Assembly: GCF_902769175.1 (NCBI RefSeq)
Contig: NZ_CACXNW010000007.1
Coordinates: 1-64,000, forward strand
Length of the DNA stretch: 64,000 bases
Reading direction: 5' to 3'
Origin: an uncultured Methanobrevibacter sp.
GTDB taxonomy: Archaea; Methanobacteriota; Methanobacteria; Methanobacteriales; Methanobacteriaceae
The notes under the pieces are model-generated. The model did no database searches, was not told where the DNA came from, and worked only from the letters and a program-made list of their open reading frames with translations. The translations under genes and the position numbers were made by a program. Shown one piece after another: positions 33,258 to 49,013 of the stretch; the first letter of the stretch is position 1; each line of letters starts with the position of its first letter.

Positions 33258-33304
33258 TATTTCTTTATTTTTTTAAGAAATTATTAAATAATTTTGCCCG
33301 TATA

Positions 33305-33463
33305 CTAACTCTCTTGCTTCACAGGTAGTTTACCCTTTCCTCCACGAGTAACCCTCGAAACAGGCAGCCTATCTAATGCCGGGTTTCTCCTAATCATCGA
33401 CAGCTAAAGCTTCCCTCATAGAAGGACCATAAACATCAGTCATAAAATATGATGCGACAATAT
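33305..33463 (-). pseudogene. Decayed C-terminus of a TnpB-like (IS605 OrfB) gene, possible omega-RNA remnant
   Basis: Read on the minus strand, this unusually GC-richer patch encodes, with two in-frame stops and one frameshift, YGPSMREALAVDD, then EKPGI, then TRGGKGKLPVKQES and a stop. A C-terminal KQE motif just before the stop is common in TnpB proteins of IS200/IS605 elements. In active elements the 3' end of tnpB and the right end also encode the guide (omega) RNA. Only the tail remains here, with no catalytic residues. Identification is by pattern memory and needs an alignment; another decayed gene is possible. Confidence 0.4.
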
Positions 33464-33518
33464 AATCTTTACTTAAGATTGTATATATAATTTTGTAATA
33501 AAAAAAACTATTTTTAAA

Positions 33519-33690
33519 AAATGTGGAAACCTACGCCACATACACAGTTATAAAACCCCTTCCTCAAAATCAAGCATTTTAAGAAGAAAACTTTATATGT
33601 AAAAACAGCAAAAATGTGGAAACCTACCCCCTATAACAGTGTTAAAAAAGCCTTACACAAAACTTAGCAAAAAGAAGAAGCAGTTAGCAT
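33519..33690. repeat. Imperfect direct duplication with shared ATGTGGAAACCTAC
   Basis: Two copies of about 75-90 bp begin near 33519 and 33612. The first 17 bases (AAAATGTGGAAACCTAC) are identical. The rest aligns at about 75% with small gaps. Each could start a tiny ORF beginning MWKPTP, but both stop within 20 codons. Confidence 0.7.
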
Positions 33691-33722
33691 TTAAATTAGA
33701 AAAATAAGAAAAAATTTTAAGG

Positions 33723-33763
33723 GTTTAATCAAGTTCTTTAAACAGAAGTTTTGTTAAACAAAA
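33723..33763. repeat. Dispersed repeat, copy 1
   Basis: The consensus is GTTTAATCAAGTTCTTTAAA followed by CAGAAGTTTTGCTAAACAAA; this copy has one change (GTTAAAC). It is internally palindromic (GTTTAA ... TTAAAC; GTTT ... AAAC). It sits just behind the 3' end of the minus-strand gene 33771-34004. Confidence 0.9.
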
Positions 33764-33770
33764 ATAGCTT

Positions 33771-34004
33771 TTATAATTTAGATTCGTCAATAGGAATAGG
33801 ATTATCCCGAGTACCGAAAAAGTCAGGCAACCTATTTCTAGCTATACACCATGCTTTCCATTCATAATATTTTTTAGGGTCTTCTTGCCATAACTTTTTA
33901 ATATGGGCTTTTTTACCATCATTATCTAGTTCTTCCATTTTTAGTACTTCTGAAGTATTTTCAAATCTACCATATCCTTCTGGACGATCAAAAGTGTACT
34001 CCAT
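33771..34004 (-). CDS. Small orphan protein flanked by dispersed repeats
   Basis: 77 residues, soluble, rich in Trp, Lys and Asp (KKLWQEDPKKYYEWKAWC), with no signal peptide. I know no family. TTAGGTGATAAA precedes the ATG, so translation is likely. It is enclosed on both sides by the same 36-41 bp repeat in direct orientation (33723 and 34050), which makes it look like a small cassette. The function cannot be stated. Confidence 0.6.
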   Translation of the reverse strand: MEYTFDRPEGYGRFENTSEVLKMEELDNDGKKAHIKKLWQEDPKKYYEWKAWCIARNRLPDFFGTRDNPIPIDESKL

Positions 34005-34049
34005 TTTATCACCTAATTAGTATTATATTCTTTGGCATTAATAAATTTT

Positions 34050-34086
34050 GTTTAATCAAGTTCTTTAAACAGAAGTTTTGCTAAAC
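34050..34086. repeat. Dispersed repeat, copy 2
   Basis: Identical to the consensus of copy 1 from GTTTAATCAAG through GCTAAAC, then diverging. It lies between the 77-residue gene and the solute-binding protein gene. Confidence 0.9.
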
Positions 34087-34245
34087 TTTATCAAACTTTT
34101 AAAATTAGATAAGTATTGAATTTATTTCAGAAATTTTATTAATAAAAGATTATAAATTATAATTATGTATAATATTAATGTTTTAGATTAATTAATTTTT
34201 AATTAAAGAGTTAATTATCTAATATAATTAATTGGGGCGAGAGTA

Positions 34246-35067
34246 ATGAAAAAATTAACAATATCAATATCAATTATTTTAATGCTCTTAATAATTGTAT
34301 GTGTTGGTTTCGGATTTTTTGATTTCTTAGGTAATCCTGAGACTTTTGATAACAATCCAGATAGTGCATTTGTCATTGGATTCAATAGTGAATTTCCTCC
34401 ATTTGGTTATGTGTCTGACAATGCCACTTATACTGGTTTTGATATTGAATTAGCTCAAGAGGTTGCTAAAAGGAATAATTGGACATTCAAAGCACAGCCA
34501 CTTATAGATTGGAACACTAAAAAAGTTTCTTTGGATAGTAAGGAAATTGACTGTATTTGGAGTGAATTCACTATCAATGGAAGAGAGAATGATTACCTTT
34601 GGACTAAGCCTTACTTTAACAATACCAAGTATGTTGTTGTTAACAAGGATTCAAATATCACAACTCTGGATGATTTGAATGGCACAGTTTTAGAAGTTCA
34701 AAAAGGAAGTTCAATCTTAAATACAATTGCAAAAAATGACACTCTAAACAAAACTTTTAAGCAAATAAATCAAGTGGATGGATACAACACCGCATTTAAG
34801 GATATGGTATCTGGAAATTGTGATGTTATAATACTTGATTGCTGTTTAGGAAGATATATGGTTAAGGAGAAATATACCAATACAAGAATCCTAAATGAAA
34901 CAGTTAACACTGAAGAATATGGGGTAGCATTTGCAAAAGATAATCATGAATTAAAAGATCAAGTTCAAAGAACTTTGGATGAAATGTATAGGGATGGAAC
35001 TGTAGAGAGAATTGCTAAAAAATACAGTGATTATGGTGTTCCTGAAGGTTTAATTTATCCAGAATAG
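34246..35067 (+). CDS. Amino-acid ABC transporter solute-binding protein (family 3)
   Basis: 273 residues. A signal peptide/anchor (about 5-26, LTISISIILMLLIIVCVGF) precedes a periplasmic-binding fold of family 3. The fold shows IGFNSEFPPFGYVSDNATYTGFDIELAQEVA, LDDLNGTVLEVQKGSS and YGVAFAKDNHELKDQV. Such proteins bind polar amino acids outside the cell and pass them to an ABC permease. No permease or ATPase is adjacent, so it is an orphan here, or possibly a sensor. The lead sequence GGGGCGAGAGTA is an unusual ribosome site. Repeat copies 2 and 3 flank the gene. Confidence 0.88.
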   Translation: MKKLTISISIILMLLIIVCVGFGFFDFLGNPETFDNNPDSAFVIGFNSEFPPFGYVSDNATYTGFDIELAQEVAKRNNWTFKAQPLIDWNTKKVSLDSKEIDCIWSEFTINGRENDYLWTKPYFNNTKYVVVNKDSNITTLDDLNGTVLEVQKGSSILNTIAKNDTLNKTFKQINQVDGYNTAFKDMVSGNCDVIILDCCLGRYMVKEKYTNTRILNETVNTEEYGVAFAKDNHELKDQVQRTLDEMYRDGTVERIAKKYSDYGVPEGLIYPE

Positions 35068-35300
35068 GGAAATTTAATCTCTATTTTGCAACATAACGAT
35101 TTAATGGGCTTGATTATACTAATGTTAAATGATAATGTATTCGGTGACTACTGAAACATTTATTTCACTCTTTTTATTATTTTTTTTTTAAATATTTAAT
35201 CAAATTATCTAAAAGTTATTAATTGTTTTAATTTATTTTTGACATGCTTTATCGAATTTTGACTAAAATGTATCGTGTCACATTCTCCATTTTGCATTTT

Positions 35301-35341
35301 GTTTGATCAAGTTCTTTAAACAGAAGTTTTGCTAAACAAAA
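35301..35341. repeat. Dispersed repeat, copy 3
   Basis: Matches the consensus with one change (GTTTGATCAAG). It is in the same orientation as copies 1 and 2 and lies behind the solute-binding protein gene. A weak fourth copy may be at 36402-36435. Confidence 0.9.
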
Positions 35342-35368
35342 TAGATTTAAAAAAAAAGTAAAAAATTA

Positions 35369-35465
35369 GGGTCTGTTGAAAACCTTTTTAAAAATTTATT
35401 TTAAATCTTTTTAACAGTGAAATTTAAAAATTTTTATATAAATTTATAGGATTTCAACAAAGCCC
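35369..35465. mobile_element. 97-bp MITE-like element with inverted ends
   Basis: The left end GGGTCTGTTGAAAACC and the right end, read inverted, GGGCTTTGTTGAAATCC are near-matching terminal inverted repeats. They resemble the GGCTTTGTTGAA ends of IS5-type (IS903-like) elements. Direct flanks AAAATTA(G) on both sides look like a 7-8 bp target duplication. The interior is AT-rich with partial self-complementarity and no ORF, so it needs a transposase in trans. The rest of the 463-bp spacer 35068-35530 is AT-rich and noncoding. Confidence 0.75.
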
Positions 35466-35530
35466 AAAATTAGATAAGATTATCTAAATTTTCATTAACA
35501 ATTAAAATTCAGGAAAAGGGTTTATATAGG

Positions 35531-35996: not shown

Positions 35997-36233
35997 TTTA
36001 AAAGATATTATTTTTTAAAATTATTTTAAGAACAAATGTTTCTCAAGATGAAAATTAAAAATAATGAGATTGTAAAAAAGTTTCGGCTTAAAATCAGAAC
36101 ATTAATTTTTATTTTTAAAGAAATCTGACAAAATTAAAATAAGCCTATAAAATTTTTCACTCTCAAAATAATATTTTTAAAATATATGTGAATAATATTT
36201 TAAAGATATTATTTTTTAAAATTATTTTAAGAA
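35997..36233. repeat. Direct repeat, two 36-bp copies 200 bp apart
   Basis: Copies at about 35997-36032 and 36198-36233 share TTTAAAGATATTATTTTTTA and AAATTATTTTAAGAA. They lie in the 767-bp gene-free stretch 35915-36681. That stretch also holds two promoter-like sites and a faint fourth copy of the dispersed repeat, and otherwise no convincing gene. Confidence 0.8.
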
Positions 36234-36347: not shown

Positions 36348-36578
36348 CTTTAAATAATAAATAGTGCATGGAATATTGGGTTAAATTGAAAATTAAACCA
36401 AGTTTGGTCAAATTCCTTAATAGAAATTTTGGGAAAATAAAAAGTTTAGGAATTTGGGATTGTATAAATTTATTTGAAAAACTTTTTTTATTAAAAATGC
36501 TTATTTTTTAAATTGAAGAGTAAAATCCACTTATATCTTATTTATAAACATTTAAAAACTTTATTTTTTAAAATAAAG

Positions 36579-41833: not shown

Positions 41834-41886
41834 AAAAAGGTTTAAGTTTAATAGATTTCATTAGATTAAAGTTTCAAAAGCATATT

Positions 41887-45062: not shown

Positions 45063-46709
45063 ATGTTAGAAATGAAAAATTTATCAAAAAAATTAATAGT
45101 CATATTTTTATGTGGGCTGCTAGTGTGTAGCATACAGGCATGTGCAGCATGTACTGCTGTATACGTAGGGCAGGATGTTAGCGCAGACGGTTCAATAATT
45201 ATCGCCAGATCAAACGACCATCAAGACGTTTGGGGAAATCATATTACAGTGATTCCAAGGGTAGAGAACCAAGAGGGACGCTTTATGCCTGTAAGTGGGG
45301 ATGGAAAGGTAAAGATGGAACTTCCATCAACCACATATAAATACACAGCAACACCCTATATGAATAGTACAACTGCATACAATGGAGCATCTCATGATGC
45401 AGCTGCCTGCACTAATGAATATGGAGTTGCCATGACCATGTCCGTTACAGCATTTCCAAATGATGCTGCATTGAAAGCAGATCCATTAGTTGAAGAAGGA
45501 ATTACTGAAGATACAGCAGTGGACCTTGTGGTTTGTCAGAGTAAAACAGCAAGAGAAGCTGTAGAAAAGCTTTGTGGAATCATTGACAAGTACGGGAGCA
45601 GTGAAACCAATATTGCCCTCATCGCTGACCAAAATGAAACATGGTATGTAGAGATGTATACTGGACACCAGTATTCTGCAGTGAAATTGCCATCTGACAA
45701 GGCATCTGCATTTGGTAATGAATTTAACTTAGAATACCTGTCTGACTATGAAGACAACATCACATCAAAAAATTTAACCAAACTTGCAGAGGAAAAGGGT
45801 TTTGCTGTACATGGCAAAAATAATGAAATCAATTTATATGAAACATATTCTGGAATTGATATGGCTTTCGATTACTCACATTTGAGGACTTGAATAGGAC
45901 ACCATCTTTTATCCCCTTCAAACTACAGTGCAGACTACAGTTTAAACACTATGTATCCTCTCTGCTTTACACCAGACAAGAAAGTTTCAATGGAAGATGT
46001 CTGTCAAATTTACCGAAACAGATATGAAGGAACAGAATATTCTCCTGATGAAACTGGCAGAGGTGAAATTAGGGTTATTGGAACTGAGACTACACTAAGT
46101 GCCCATGTCTTACAGGTGTACCCAGACCTTCCAGCAGAAATGTCATGCGTCAGTTGGGTCAGTTCTGGTCCGGCAGTTTGTGGAGTCTATGTGCCAGTCT
46201 CCAACGATTGCCTAAATGTCAGTGAGGCTTATGGAGCCAATCAACCTGCAAATGAGAAAGAAACCTTTGATACAGATCACTACCCATATTATGTATTTAA
46301 GGAACTTTGCGATCGTGGTATAGGACCTGAAAACTACAAACCTTATGGTAAGCCTGTACAAGCCTACTGGAAAGAAGCGGAAGCAAATATGTTTACTGGA
46401 ATGAGTGAAGTCATTAAAAAGGCTGAAAAAATAGAGGATAAGGAGACTAGGGCAAAATATATCACAGCATACTGTAATGAGAAGCAGAGCCAAGCATTCG
46501 CAGACGGTCAAGAAATATTGAATGATGTGACTTGGATACAAAACAAAAACAGTAAAACACTTAAAGTCAAGCTCAATCCTGAAACCCATGAACTAACTGG
46601 TGAGAAGATAGAGATTCCTCCAATGAACATAAGCCTTAATGCAACAAAATATAAACATGTTCCAGAGGTGCCAAATGGAGGATTTGAATTTAAACTTCCA
46701 TTTACCTAG
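45063..46709 (+). pseudogene. C69 family dipeptidase, copy 1, broken by an internal TGA
   Basis: A secreted Ntn-hydrolase of the U34/C69 dipeptidase family. A hydrophobic leader (11-29) ends directly before C30 in AACTAVYVGQDVSADGS, and that cysteine becomes the N-terminal nucleophile after processing. One reading frame runs 548 codons but is cut by TGA at 45891-45893. The neighbouring paralogue has TGG (Trp) there and ATG where this copy has ATA, so two G-to-A changes explain the lesion. Everything after the stop is otherwise open and conserved. Truncation, readthrough or a sequencing error are the options. The gene would encode a gut peptide-degrading enzyme. Confidence 0.85.
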
Positions 46710-46795
46710 TTATTGCATATTACTGCAATTGATGCAAATGGAATCTCTAAACTAATTCATTCAGTAAGGAAACTGCAGAGAAATTTCATATATGC

Positions 46796-46830
46796 AAAGG
46801 AATTTATTTTCCTTGTTTTTTCTTTTTTTA
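46796..46830 (+). terminator. Hairpin plus T-run behind C69 copy 1
   Basis: The stem AAGGAA/TTCCTT is followed by G and a long T-run with one C. The paralogous gene ends with an equivalent hairpin, so it was duplicated together with the gene. Confidence 0.6.
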
Positions 46831-47358
46831 AAAAGTTTGAACTATTCGATTTTTCTTTTTTTTAAGAGATTTAAACTACTTTTTTCTTTTTTAAGGAGAT
46901 TTGAACTAATTTTTTCTTTATTAAGACTTTATGATTATTATTTACTAATTGTTTCAATTGAATTTTAATTCTAATTTTACTTGTTTAAAGTAGTTTATTG
47001 AAAAAATAATTAATTAAAATGGTTTAAATTAGTTCATTAATTGAAGTTTTGTAAAACATAACCCTATTTAAAAAAAGAAAAAAATCTAAAGATAAACAAA
47101 AAATAAACCAACAGATGAAAAAAAAAAGAAAAAATTTCTAAATTTAAACAAAAAACAAACCAACAGATGAAAAAAAGAAAAAAATCACAATTATGAAAAT
47201 AAACATGGAAATCAGTATAACAATGTTAAAAAGTATGATTGAACAAGTTTATAAAATAATTGCAAAAAAGTATATAAACTACAAAAAAAGAAAAAATAAT
47301 AGGGATGACATTATTTATTAAATTTTGTGTAATATTTAAACATCAAATGAATGTTTAG
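46831..47358. repeat. Repeat-filled spacer between the C69 paralogues
   Basis: Three diverged units with TTTTTCTTTTTT-AAG-GATTTGAACTA lie at about 46830-46925. Two units with AAACCAACAGATGAAAAAAA lie at about 47085-47175. A weak relative of the dispersed 35-40 bp repeat is at about 47020-47060. No gene is seen. Confidence 0.6.
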
Positions 47359-49013
47359 ATGAATTATATGATAGAGTTAAAATATTTATCCAAAAAAGGG
47401 ATAGTCATAATTTTATGTGTGCTGTTATTGTGTGGAACACAAGCTAGCGCAGCATGTACTGCAATATATGTAGGCTCAGATGTCAGTGCTGACGGTTCAA
47501 CAATCATGGCAAGGTCAAACGACTTTCCAGAAGTTTATGGGAATCACATCACAGTTACTCCAAGAGTAGAAAATCAACCGGGACGATTTATGCCAGTAAG
47601 TTGGGATGGAAAGGTAAGACAGAGATTCCGGCAACAACTTACAAATACACTTCAACACCATTTATGAATAGTACAAGAGCATATAATGGATTTAATCAGG
47701 ATTCAACTGCCTGCACTAATGAATATGGAGTAGCAATGACTATGTCCGTTACAGCATTCGCAAACAATGCTTCATTGGAAGCAGACCCATTAGTGCCAGA
47801 GGGCCTTACAGAATTTGCTGCAGTGGATCTTGTAGTTTGTCAGAGTAAAACAGCAAGAGAAGCTGTAGAAAAGCTTTGCGGAATCATAGATAAATACGGA
47901 AGCAGCGAGTCCAATATTGCAATCATCTCTGACCAAAATGAAACATGGTATGTGGAGATGTATACTGGACACCAGTATGCTGCAGTGAAAATGCCTAAAG
48001 ACAAAGTAGCAGTCTTTGGTAATGAATTTACCTTAGAATACTTGTCTGACTACGAAGACAACATCACATCAAAAAATTTAACTAAACTTGCAGAAGAAAA
48101 GGGTTTTGCTGTACATGGCAAAAATAATGAGATTAATTTGTTTGATACATATTCTGGAAAGGAAATGACTTTCGATTATTCTCATAGGAGGACTTGGATG
48201 GGACACCAACTTCTATCCCCTTCAAACTACAGTGCAGACTACAATCTAAACGCTATGTATCATCTCTGCTTTACACCAGACAAGAATGTTTCAATAGAAG
48301 ATGTCTGTCAGATTATCCGTAATAGATTTGAAGGAACAGAATTTTCCCCTGAAGAAAATGGCAGAATTGATGTAAGAGTTATTGGAACAGATACAGCACT
48401 AAGTGTACATGCATTACAGGTTTTCCCAGACCTTCCAGCAGAAATGTCATGTGTCAGTTGGGTCAGTACTGGTCCAGCACTTTATGGAGTGTTTGTACCT
48501 GTCTCTAACGATTGCCTAAATGTCAGTGAAGCTTATGGAGCAAATCAAGCTGCAAAGGACAAAGAAACCTTTGATACAGATCACTACCCATATTATGTCT
48601 TTAAGGAACTTAACACCCGTTGTTTGGAACCAGAGGATTACCAAGCTTATGGTAAGCCTATTAGAGCTTACTGGAAAGAAGCAGAGCATAATATGTTCGA
48701 AGGAATGAGTAAAGTCAATAAAAAAGCAGCAACAATGAATGATAAGGATGCAAGGGCAAAATATATCACTGCATACTGTAATGAGAAGCAGACCCAAGCA
48801 TTCAATGATGGGAAAGTACTGCTGGATGATGTGATTTGGACACAAAACAAAAACAGTAAAACACTTAAATTAAAGCTCAATCCCGAAACCCATGAACTGA
48901 CTGGTGAAAAGATAGAGATTCCACCTATTAACATAACCCTTAATGCAACAAAATATAAGAACATTCCAGAAGCGCCAGATGAGGGATTTCCATTTAAACT
49001 CCCTTTTACCTAG
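47359..49013 (+). pseudogene. C69 family dipeptidase, copy 2, broken by a 1-base deletion
   Basis: Paralogue of the preceding gene, with the same leader and nucleophile C33 in AACTAIYVGSDVSADGS. The first frame runs to 47667, and the rest of the enzyme continues in another frame from about 47601 to 49013. Comparison with copy 1 shows the join: GTA then AG-ACA where GTA-AAG-ACA is expected, so one A is missing near 47617. After the shift the enzyme is intact to its end. As assembled, neither C69 copy yields a full-length protein. Confidence 0.85.

Follow-up and report, generated by a model that had tools for sequence, protein, structure and literature searches.

Three near-identical copies of a short repeat, all in the same orientation, enclose two genes in a 64,000-nucleotide stretch of DNA from an uncultured Methanobrevibacter sp. 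(contig NZ_CACXNW010000007.1, positions 1 to 64,000; this whole stretch is referred to as the window). The arrangement raises the question of whether the locus is a cassette system, as the original prediction suggested from the letters alone, and, if so, which enzyme builds it. The window feature is very probably an orphan member of a group of CRISPR-derived arrays, for which we coined the name "gene-sized-spacer arrays". In these, 37-bp repeats that follow a leader are separated by inserts of about 0.2-4 kb, the arrays go with an effector-less clade of Cas1-Cas2, and fragments appear to be copied into them at repeat 1.

Architecture of the window array

The predicted number and orientation of the copies were borne out, and the part shared by the three repeats, first put at 36-41 bp, measures exactly 37 bp, with 0-1 mismatch from the consensus and flanks that diverge immediately (Table 1). 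When up to 3 mismatches were allowed, the 25-bp core of the repeat was found only at these three sites, both within the window and genome-wide, and 0 times in 100 shuffles. The repeat is partly palindromic, as had been noticed (GTTTAA..TTAAAC, followed by GTTT..AAAC), and has inverted-repeat arms with a 7-bp centre. The mini-hairpins of the element showed no compensatory base changes, so a role in RNA structure is unsupported.

Table 1. Features of the array and related repeat copies, in window coordinates
Feature	Position	Strand	Remarks
Leader	33511..33722	+	212 bp, conserved; last base abuts repeat 1
Repeat 1	33723..33759	+	37 bp, leader-proximal
Insert 1	33760..34049		290 bp, viral-type DNA, one complete gene
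77-aa gene	33771..34004	-	phrog_19593, E 8.4e-30; putative MuF-toxin immunity gene
Repeat 2	34050..34086	+	37 bp
Insert 2	34087..35300		1,214 bp, between repeats 2 and 3
Family-3 extracellular solute-binding protein gene	34246..35067	+	complete, 273 aa; PF00497, E 3.9e-30
Repeat 3	35301..35337	+	37 bp
Possible decayed terminal repeat (tentative)	41846..41881	+	covariance model, 12.4 bits only, E 0.68
Diverged isolated repeat copy	47022..47057	+	covariance model, 29.6 bits, E 2.5e-4 in 24 kb

The repeats bracket first the 77-residue gene and then the solute-binding protein gene, in agreement with the prediction. Over its full length, insert 1 can be aligned (76%) with a section of a longer insert in the array of genome G025 (L045:8326-8617), and in a second match the alignment also ends at 34049 while the partner DNA runs on. 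In insert 2, positions 34116-35074 are 82% identical to a paralogous locus of the window genome (G000:C8:103411-104390); no near-identical source for either insert was found in this genome.

By BLAST, the leader is 70-80% identical over its whole or nearly whole length to the leaders in loci L089, L095, L057, L058, and L053-L055, and the matches stop at the repeat in every one of these relatives. The leader has no match in Rfam. A conserved block at 33278-33501 was considered as part of it and rejected as a separate feature that occurs once in most genomes, which restricts the leader to the interval in Table 1. Within that block, 211 bp (33291-33501) are 75-100% identical across much of the family and 100% identical in one other species, with no Rfam match. 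This sequence is single-copy in most genomes with a match and adjoins a MutS2-like gene in the window, G012, G004, G002, and G005; it is possibly a conserved RNA or a small gene outside the array.

Among the degenerate relatives that had been proposed, the one near 47020 was recovered by a covariance model of the element (described below), whereas those at 36402, 43017, and 43174 found no support from it. The weak site at 41846 matches the position of the terminal repeats of G004 and G002 (L054:1834-1870 and L055:4002-4038), about 190 bp before a conserved 145-aa gene. Two sites elsewhere in the window genome (C27:10044 and C18:3983) carry more strongly diverged copies. Such isolated copies at C27, C18, and 47022 might be expected if the element were a dispersed short repeat, such as a terminator or a MITE, that flanks two genes by chance. 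We give this explanation hardly any credence: it is already refuted by the three near-identical copies beside a conserved leader and, in relatives, by arrays with as many as 17 copies that all point the same way and by arrays adjoining cas1-cas2. As for terminator, MITE, or tRNA-att origins, the window holds no tRNA and no Rfam family.

Other repetitive sequences were seen in the neighborhood. MITE-like, multi-copy sequences of about 120 bp lie at 35348-35472 and 36051-36173 and share 87-94% identity with copies found on several contigs of the window genome. At 45063-49013, a secreted hydrolase-like gene occurs in tandem copies, partly frameshifted and 78-82% identical, with the downstream spacer repeated too. 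G012 carries a tRNA-like gene between two degenerate repeats (L061, G012:C48, 3850-4110) at the chromosomal site that corresponds to the window array.

Linkage to Cas1-Cas2 in related genomes

The DNA to the left of repeat 1 recurs in related Methanobrevibacter, where a diverged version of the element invariably marks its end. A covariance model built from 22 such elements and run on 139 genomes of the family found the element in 26 of them, with 49 matches in one genome. Exact-pattern scans with the window core gave no match in the relatives' contigs or in viral contigs because the repeat sequence is species-dependent; the family was thus found through similarity of surroundings, then through the covariance model, and then through linkage to cas1. 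On contig C11 of G025, 17 repeat copies, mostly identical and in a single orientation, have small genes between them. Genomes G003, G041, and G038 are presumably M. ruminantium M1, M. smithii ATCC 35061, and M. millerae SM9, respectively. Both cas1 and cas2 are full-length at the locus of the presumed M. smithii type strain, which would make the system accessible in a cultivated organism.

The linked enzymes are CRISPR adaptation proteins. In G003, G005, G012, and G014, a window-type leader lies between cas2 and repeat 1, directly upstream of cas2-cas1. Family models identify the products as Cas1 (TIGR00287, E 5e-45) and Cas2 (TIGR01573, E 2e-8), and the solved structure closest to this Cas1 is itself a Cas1 (4n06, E 5e-61). 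The active-site glutamate is conserved in 27 of 28 proteins (the remaining one has an E-to-D change), and the histidine and aspartate in 28 of 28. The linked integrase, for which the original prediction suggested a search, is CRISPR Cas1-Cas2 rather than an integron integrase or tyrosine recombinase.

A search with the linked Cas1 divided the Cas1 proteins of the family into group A (at least about 50% identity to the query), group B (38-46%), and group C (about 26%). Group A goes with arrays in which hundreds to thousands of bases separate one 37-bp repeat from the next, group B mostly with ordinary arrays of 37-bp repeats and 36-bp spacers, and group C with ordinary arrays of 30-31-bp repeats and 36-bp spacers. 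At least 13 group A loci carry their own 37-bp repeats, whose sequence is largely unrelated between species while the length remains constant. In the Cas1 tree, group B forms one clade with full support and every group A protein lies across that branch; the Cas1 proteins of gene-sized-spacer arrays make a clean clade only with the root between them and the ordinary group. The genes common to all 30 group A loci are cas1 and cas2 only, and no effector, cas6, or cas4 family recurs within 7 kb of cas1-cas2 among these loci. A tyrosine-integrase-like gene (about 360 aa, phage-integrase-like) lies near cas2, on its upstream side, in 9 of the 30 and may mobilize the locus.

The window array itself has no cas genes beside it. 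The window genome carries its own group C locus with 134 repeats and no group A cas1 in an 88%-complete assembly, which makes the window array an orphan or a relic that may not be served by Cas1-Cas2 today. Similarly, cas1 genes are mostly broken or missing in genus g1, where the arrays may therefore be relics or decaying. In G014 cas1 is broken and in G003 it is split (L058, L089), with cas2 and the leader still there.

Sizes and sources of the inserts

The 88 inserts measured in 16 arrays span 32-4299 bp with a median of 878 bp; 36 are at least 1 kb and 86 at least 200 bp long. In ordinary arrays of the other Cas1 groups in the same family, the median spacer is 36-37 bp. The inserts are thus neither short nor near-uniform as CRISPR-Cas spacers are, and only one is below 60 bp; short spacers, one of 32 bp and a few of 39-123 bp, are exceptional.

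The origin of several inserts could be traced. The single-contig genome G036 holds an array with eleven identical repeats, in which inserts of 529, 499, 414, and 483 bp are 99.2, 99.8, 99.3, and 100% identical, respectively, to stretches elsewhere in the chromosome, from the first through the last base. Their sources are intact in place, inside ordinary genes such as that of an acyltransferase. Both borders of a 2,623-bp insert in the same array match the methanogen virus vir080 to within 3 bp. The two leader-proximal inserts of G097 match its own chromosome (335 bp at 98.8%, 333/335 bp; 440 bp at 97.7%), and a 448-bp insert of G025 corresponds end to end, at 84.6%, to a provirus stretch (C66 8178-8578) that carries the gene directly downstream of MuF. 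These matches are our strongest data. Because the source locus remains in place, the process copies rather than cuts. Six traced sources are plain chromosomal sequence with no repeat or recombination site at their ends and share no PAM or end motif beside them, apart from a weak A bias at position 4; the traced inserts are internal fragments of genes, and there are no transposons among the sources. Viral and other DNA is thus copied with exact ends and bordered by repeats, in a pattern of repeat duplication.

Addition takes place at the leader end. Near-identical self copies occupy the leader-side half of the array in G036 and the leader end in G097, whereas no source of this kind was found for the distal ones. 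Between G060 and G073, 99.1% identity extends up to and including the final base of repeat 1, beyond which the two share nothing, and G036 and G041, 96% identical outside repeat 1, differ in array contents. Both of the latter hold pieces of one viral MuF region with different ends, indicating that the region was taken up independently. The window's own locus lies between the MutS2-like gene and the conserved 145-aa gene. There, two leader-proximal units of G004 (2,965 and 400 bp) are absent from G002, with exact borders and flanks that are 96-99% identical. At asd, where G003 carries a cas1-cas2 array, only one repeat is left in the window genome; the 60 bp to its right are identical to those that follow the terminal repeat in G003. 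This is the single-copy scar that had been anticipated. The variation in content that was also anticipated is present between close relatives, and the element was not found to be frequent beside core genes in conserved context.

Could these have begun as ordinary CRISPR arrays, in which recombination between repeats or insertion of mobile elements later put long DNA in place of, or into, the short spacers? Ordinary arrays of the sister Cas1 group have the same repeat length of 37 bp, the few short spacers described above do exist, and the repeats are able to recombine. Nevertheless, nearly all inserts are at least 200 bp long in arrays whose repeats are often all identical, the insert ends coincide exactly with the repeat borders, the traced sources are not transposons, and the newest, leader-proximal units are already long, which together make later replacement quite improbable.

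Integron-like cassettes, for which the element would be the recombination site of a tyrosine recombinase (as with IntI, pdif/Xer modules, or recombinase-associated immunity-gene clusters), would account for the repeat-gene-repeat form, the inverted arms and 7-bp centre, the exact presence/absence between repeats, and the integrase-like gene near cas2. That gene, however, is missing from 21 of the 30 loci, all of which have cas1 and cas2. A PF00589 search found no conserved array-linked integrase (IntI) and, in most genomes, general chromosomal recombinases unlinked to arrays. The repeat sequence changes between species at a constant 37 bp, and recent inserts are internal gene fragments from sources without a recombination site at their ends. 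We thus strongly disfavor such cassettes and consider them highly improbable. What stands of the original prediction is a repeat-insert-repeat system with varying content; pre-formed cassettes with their own recombination site give way to copied arbitrary fragments.

Taken together with the Cas1-Cas2 linkage, these features are best explained by the following mechanism for gene-sized-spacer arrays. Cas1-Cas2, the probable inserting enzyme, would take a double-stranded fragment of viral or chromosomal DNA and join its ends to both ends of the leader-proximal repeat, as in CRISPR adaptation, and repair or filling-in would duplicate the repeat. Uptake would involve arbitrary fragments, those with complete genes being retained more often. 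A point against this reading is that Cas1-Cas2 in known systems handles prespacers of about 30-40 bp, compared with 0.3-4 kb here.

Stored genes and comparison with known systems

Among 85 insert proteins, 9 match PHROG 19593, 3 the phage MuF family, and 3 ADP-ribosyltransferase toxins; others belong to ligase, reductase, ion channel, and similar families, and known defence genes are almost absent. In viral contig L173, the order is portal, MuF (a head protein), homologue of the window 77-aa gene, protease, and capsid, which places the homologue directly downstream of MuF. MuF followed by a gene of the 77-aa family is also found in G036 inserts and in the G025 array. Small genes directly downstream of MuF are proposed immunity genes of MuF toxins in bacterial temperate phages (PMC5576092), and from this shared position the window 77-aa gene is probably a MuF-toxin immunity gene.

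The longest frame is closed in 40 of 68 inserts, compared with 15.6 +/- 3.1 (host) and 17.7 +/- 3.4 (viral) in random fragments, a 2.3-2.6-fold excess of complete genes that reflects either selection that keeps them or preferential uptake. Because complete genes are over-represented, the array can act as a gene-capture platform, and the retained genes may well be useful. Alternatively, capture of long DNA may be real but functionless, with an effector-less adaptation module that collects fragments and genes as passengers. As expected for idle capture, the most recent inserts are fragments of the cell's own DNA, of which some are open at both ends, cas1 has decayed in several genomes, and an effector is missing. 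On the other side, complete genes are in excess, the MuF-adjacent small gene family recurs with 4 copies in one array and in the array loci of several genomes, and cas1-cas2 is conserved in about 30 genomes of the family. We consider functionless capture unlikely, but not negligible. A bolder reading of the gene-sized-spacer arrays, attractive but tentative and in our judgment just short of probable, is that of a CRISPR-derived gene-capture organ. In it, kilobase DNA, including complete viral immunity genes, would be stored and expressed, conferring new traits and a heritable, gene-based immunity with neither guide RNA nor effector, as an integron made from CRISPR parts.

If the proposed mechanism is right, a CRISPR integrase would store whole genes, beyond guide-sized fragments, and methanogens of the human gut and the rumen would have turned one branch of CRISPR integrases into a device that collects genes. 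The system would explain where some accessory and viral genes of Methanobrevibacter come from, connect CRISPR adaptation with casposons and integrons in a form open to testing, and could offer a candidate enzyme for insertion of long DNA at a fixed short site.

We found no description of gene-sized-spacer arrays in the open-access literature, a search that covered no preprints and few subscription papers. The genome paper of M. ruminantium tabulates 2 CRISPR regions (PMC2812497), in agreement with the two ordinary arrays that we saw in a genome of this type; since these account for both regions, the gene-sized-spacer locus was apparently not counted there. The system could be new as a whole though each of its parts is known, or, on a stricter view, could be a variant of the CRISPR adaptation module.

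With CRISPR adaptation modules the arrays share Cas1 and Cas2 homologues, a leader, 37-bp direct repeats, acquisition at the leader end, and self as well as viral sources. They differ in that the inserts are variable and 0.2-4 kb long (as opposed to uniform and about 36 bp), complete genes are kept, no effector, cas6, or cas4 is present, and no PAM was seen. Integrons and archaeal integrons likewise form an array of gene units that new units enter at one end. Unlike in integrons, there is no IntI here and no attC-type site in captured DNA (the sources of six inserts are without the repeat at their ends), arbitrary fragments are taken up, and Cas1-Cas2 replaces the tyrosine recombinase. Recombinase-associated acquired immunity-gene clusters of Bacteroides are arrays of small immunity genes separated by a repeated sequence, but these have another type of integrase and repeat, and arbitrary chromosomal fragments are also captured here.

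In casposons, which are transposons bounded by terminal inverted repeats and encoding a PolB and a Cas1 of their own, Cas1 is likewise tied to insertion of kilobase DNA with target duplication (PMC4046053). The inserts described here have no PolB or Cas1, Cas2 is present, the target is always the array repeat, and neither PolB nor any other gene besides cas1-cas2 is conserved in the 30 loci. The MuF polymorphic toxins of temperate phages, with their downstream immunity genes (PMC5576092), show the same order of portal, MuF, and small downstream gene, the last of which is stored in the window; those are known from bacterial phages, whereas here they occur in methanogen viruses and are stored in an array, with a putative immunity function. 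On these comparisons, we regard the system as one that works like an integron and is built from a CRISPR adaptation module.
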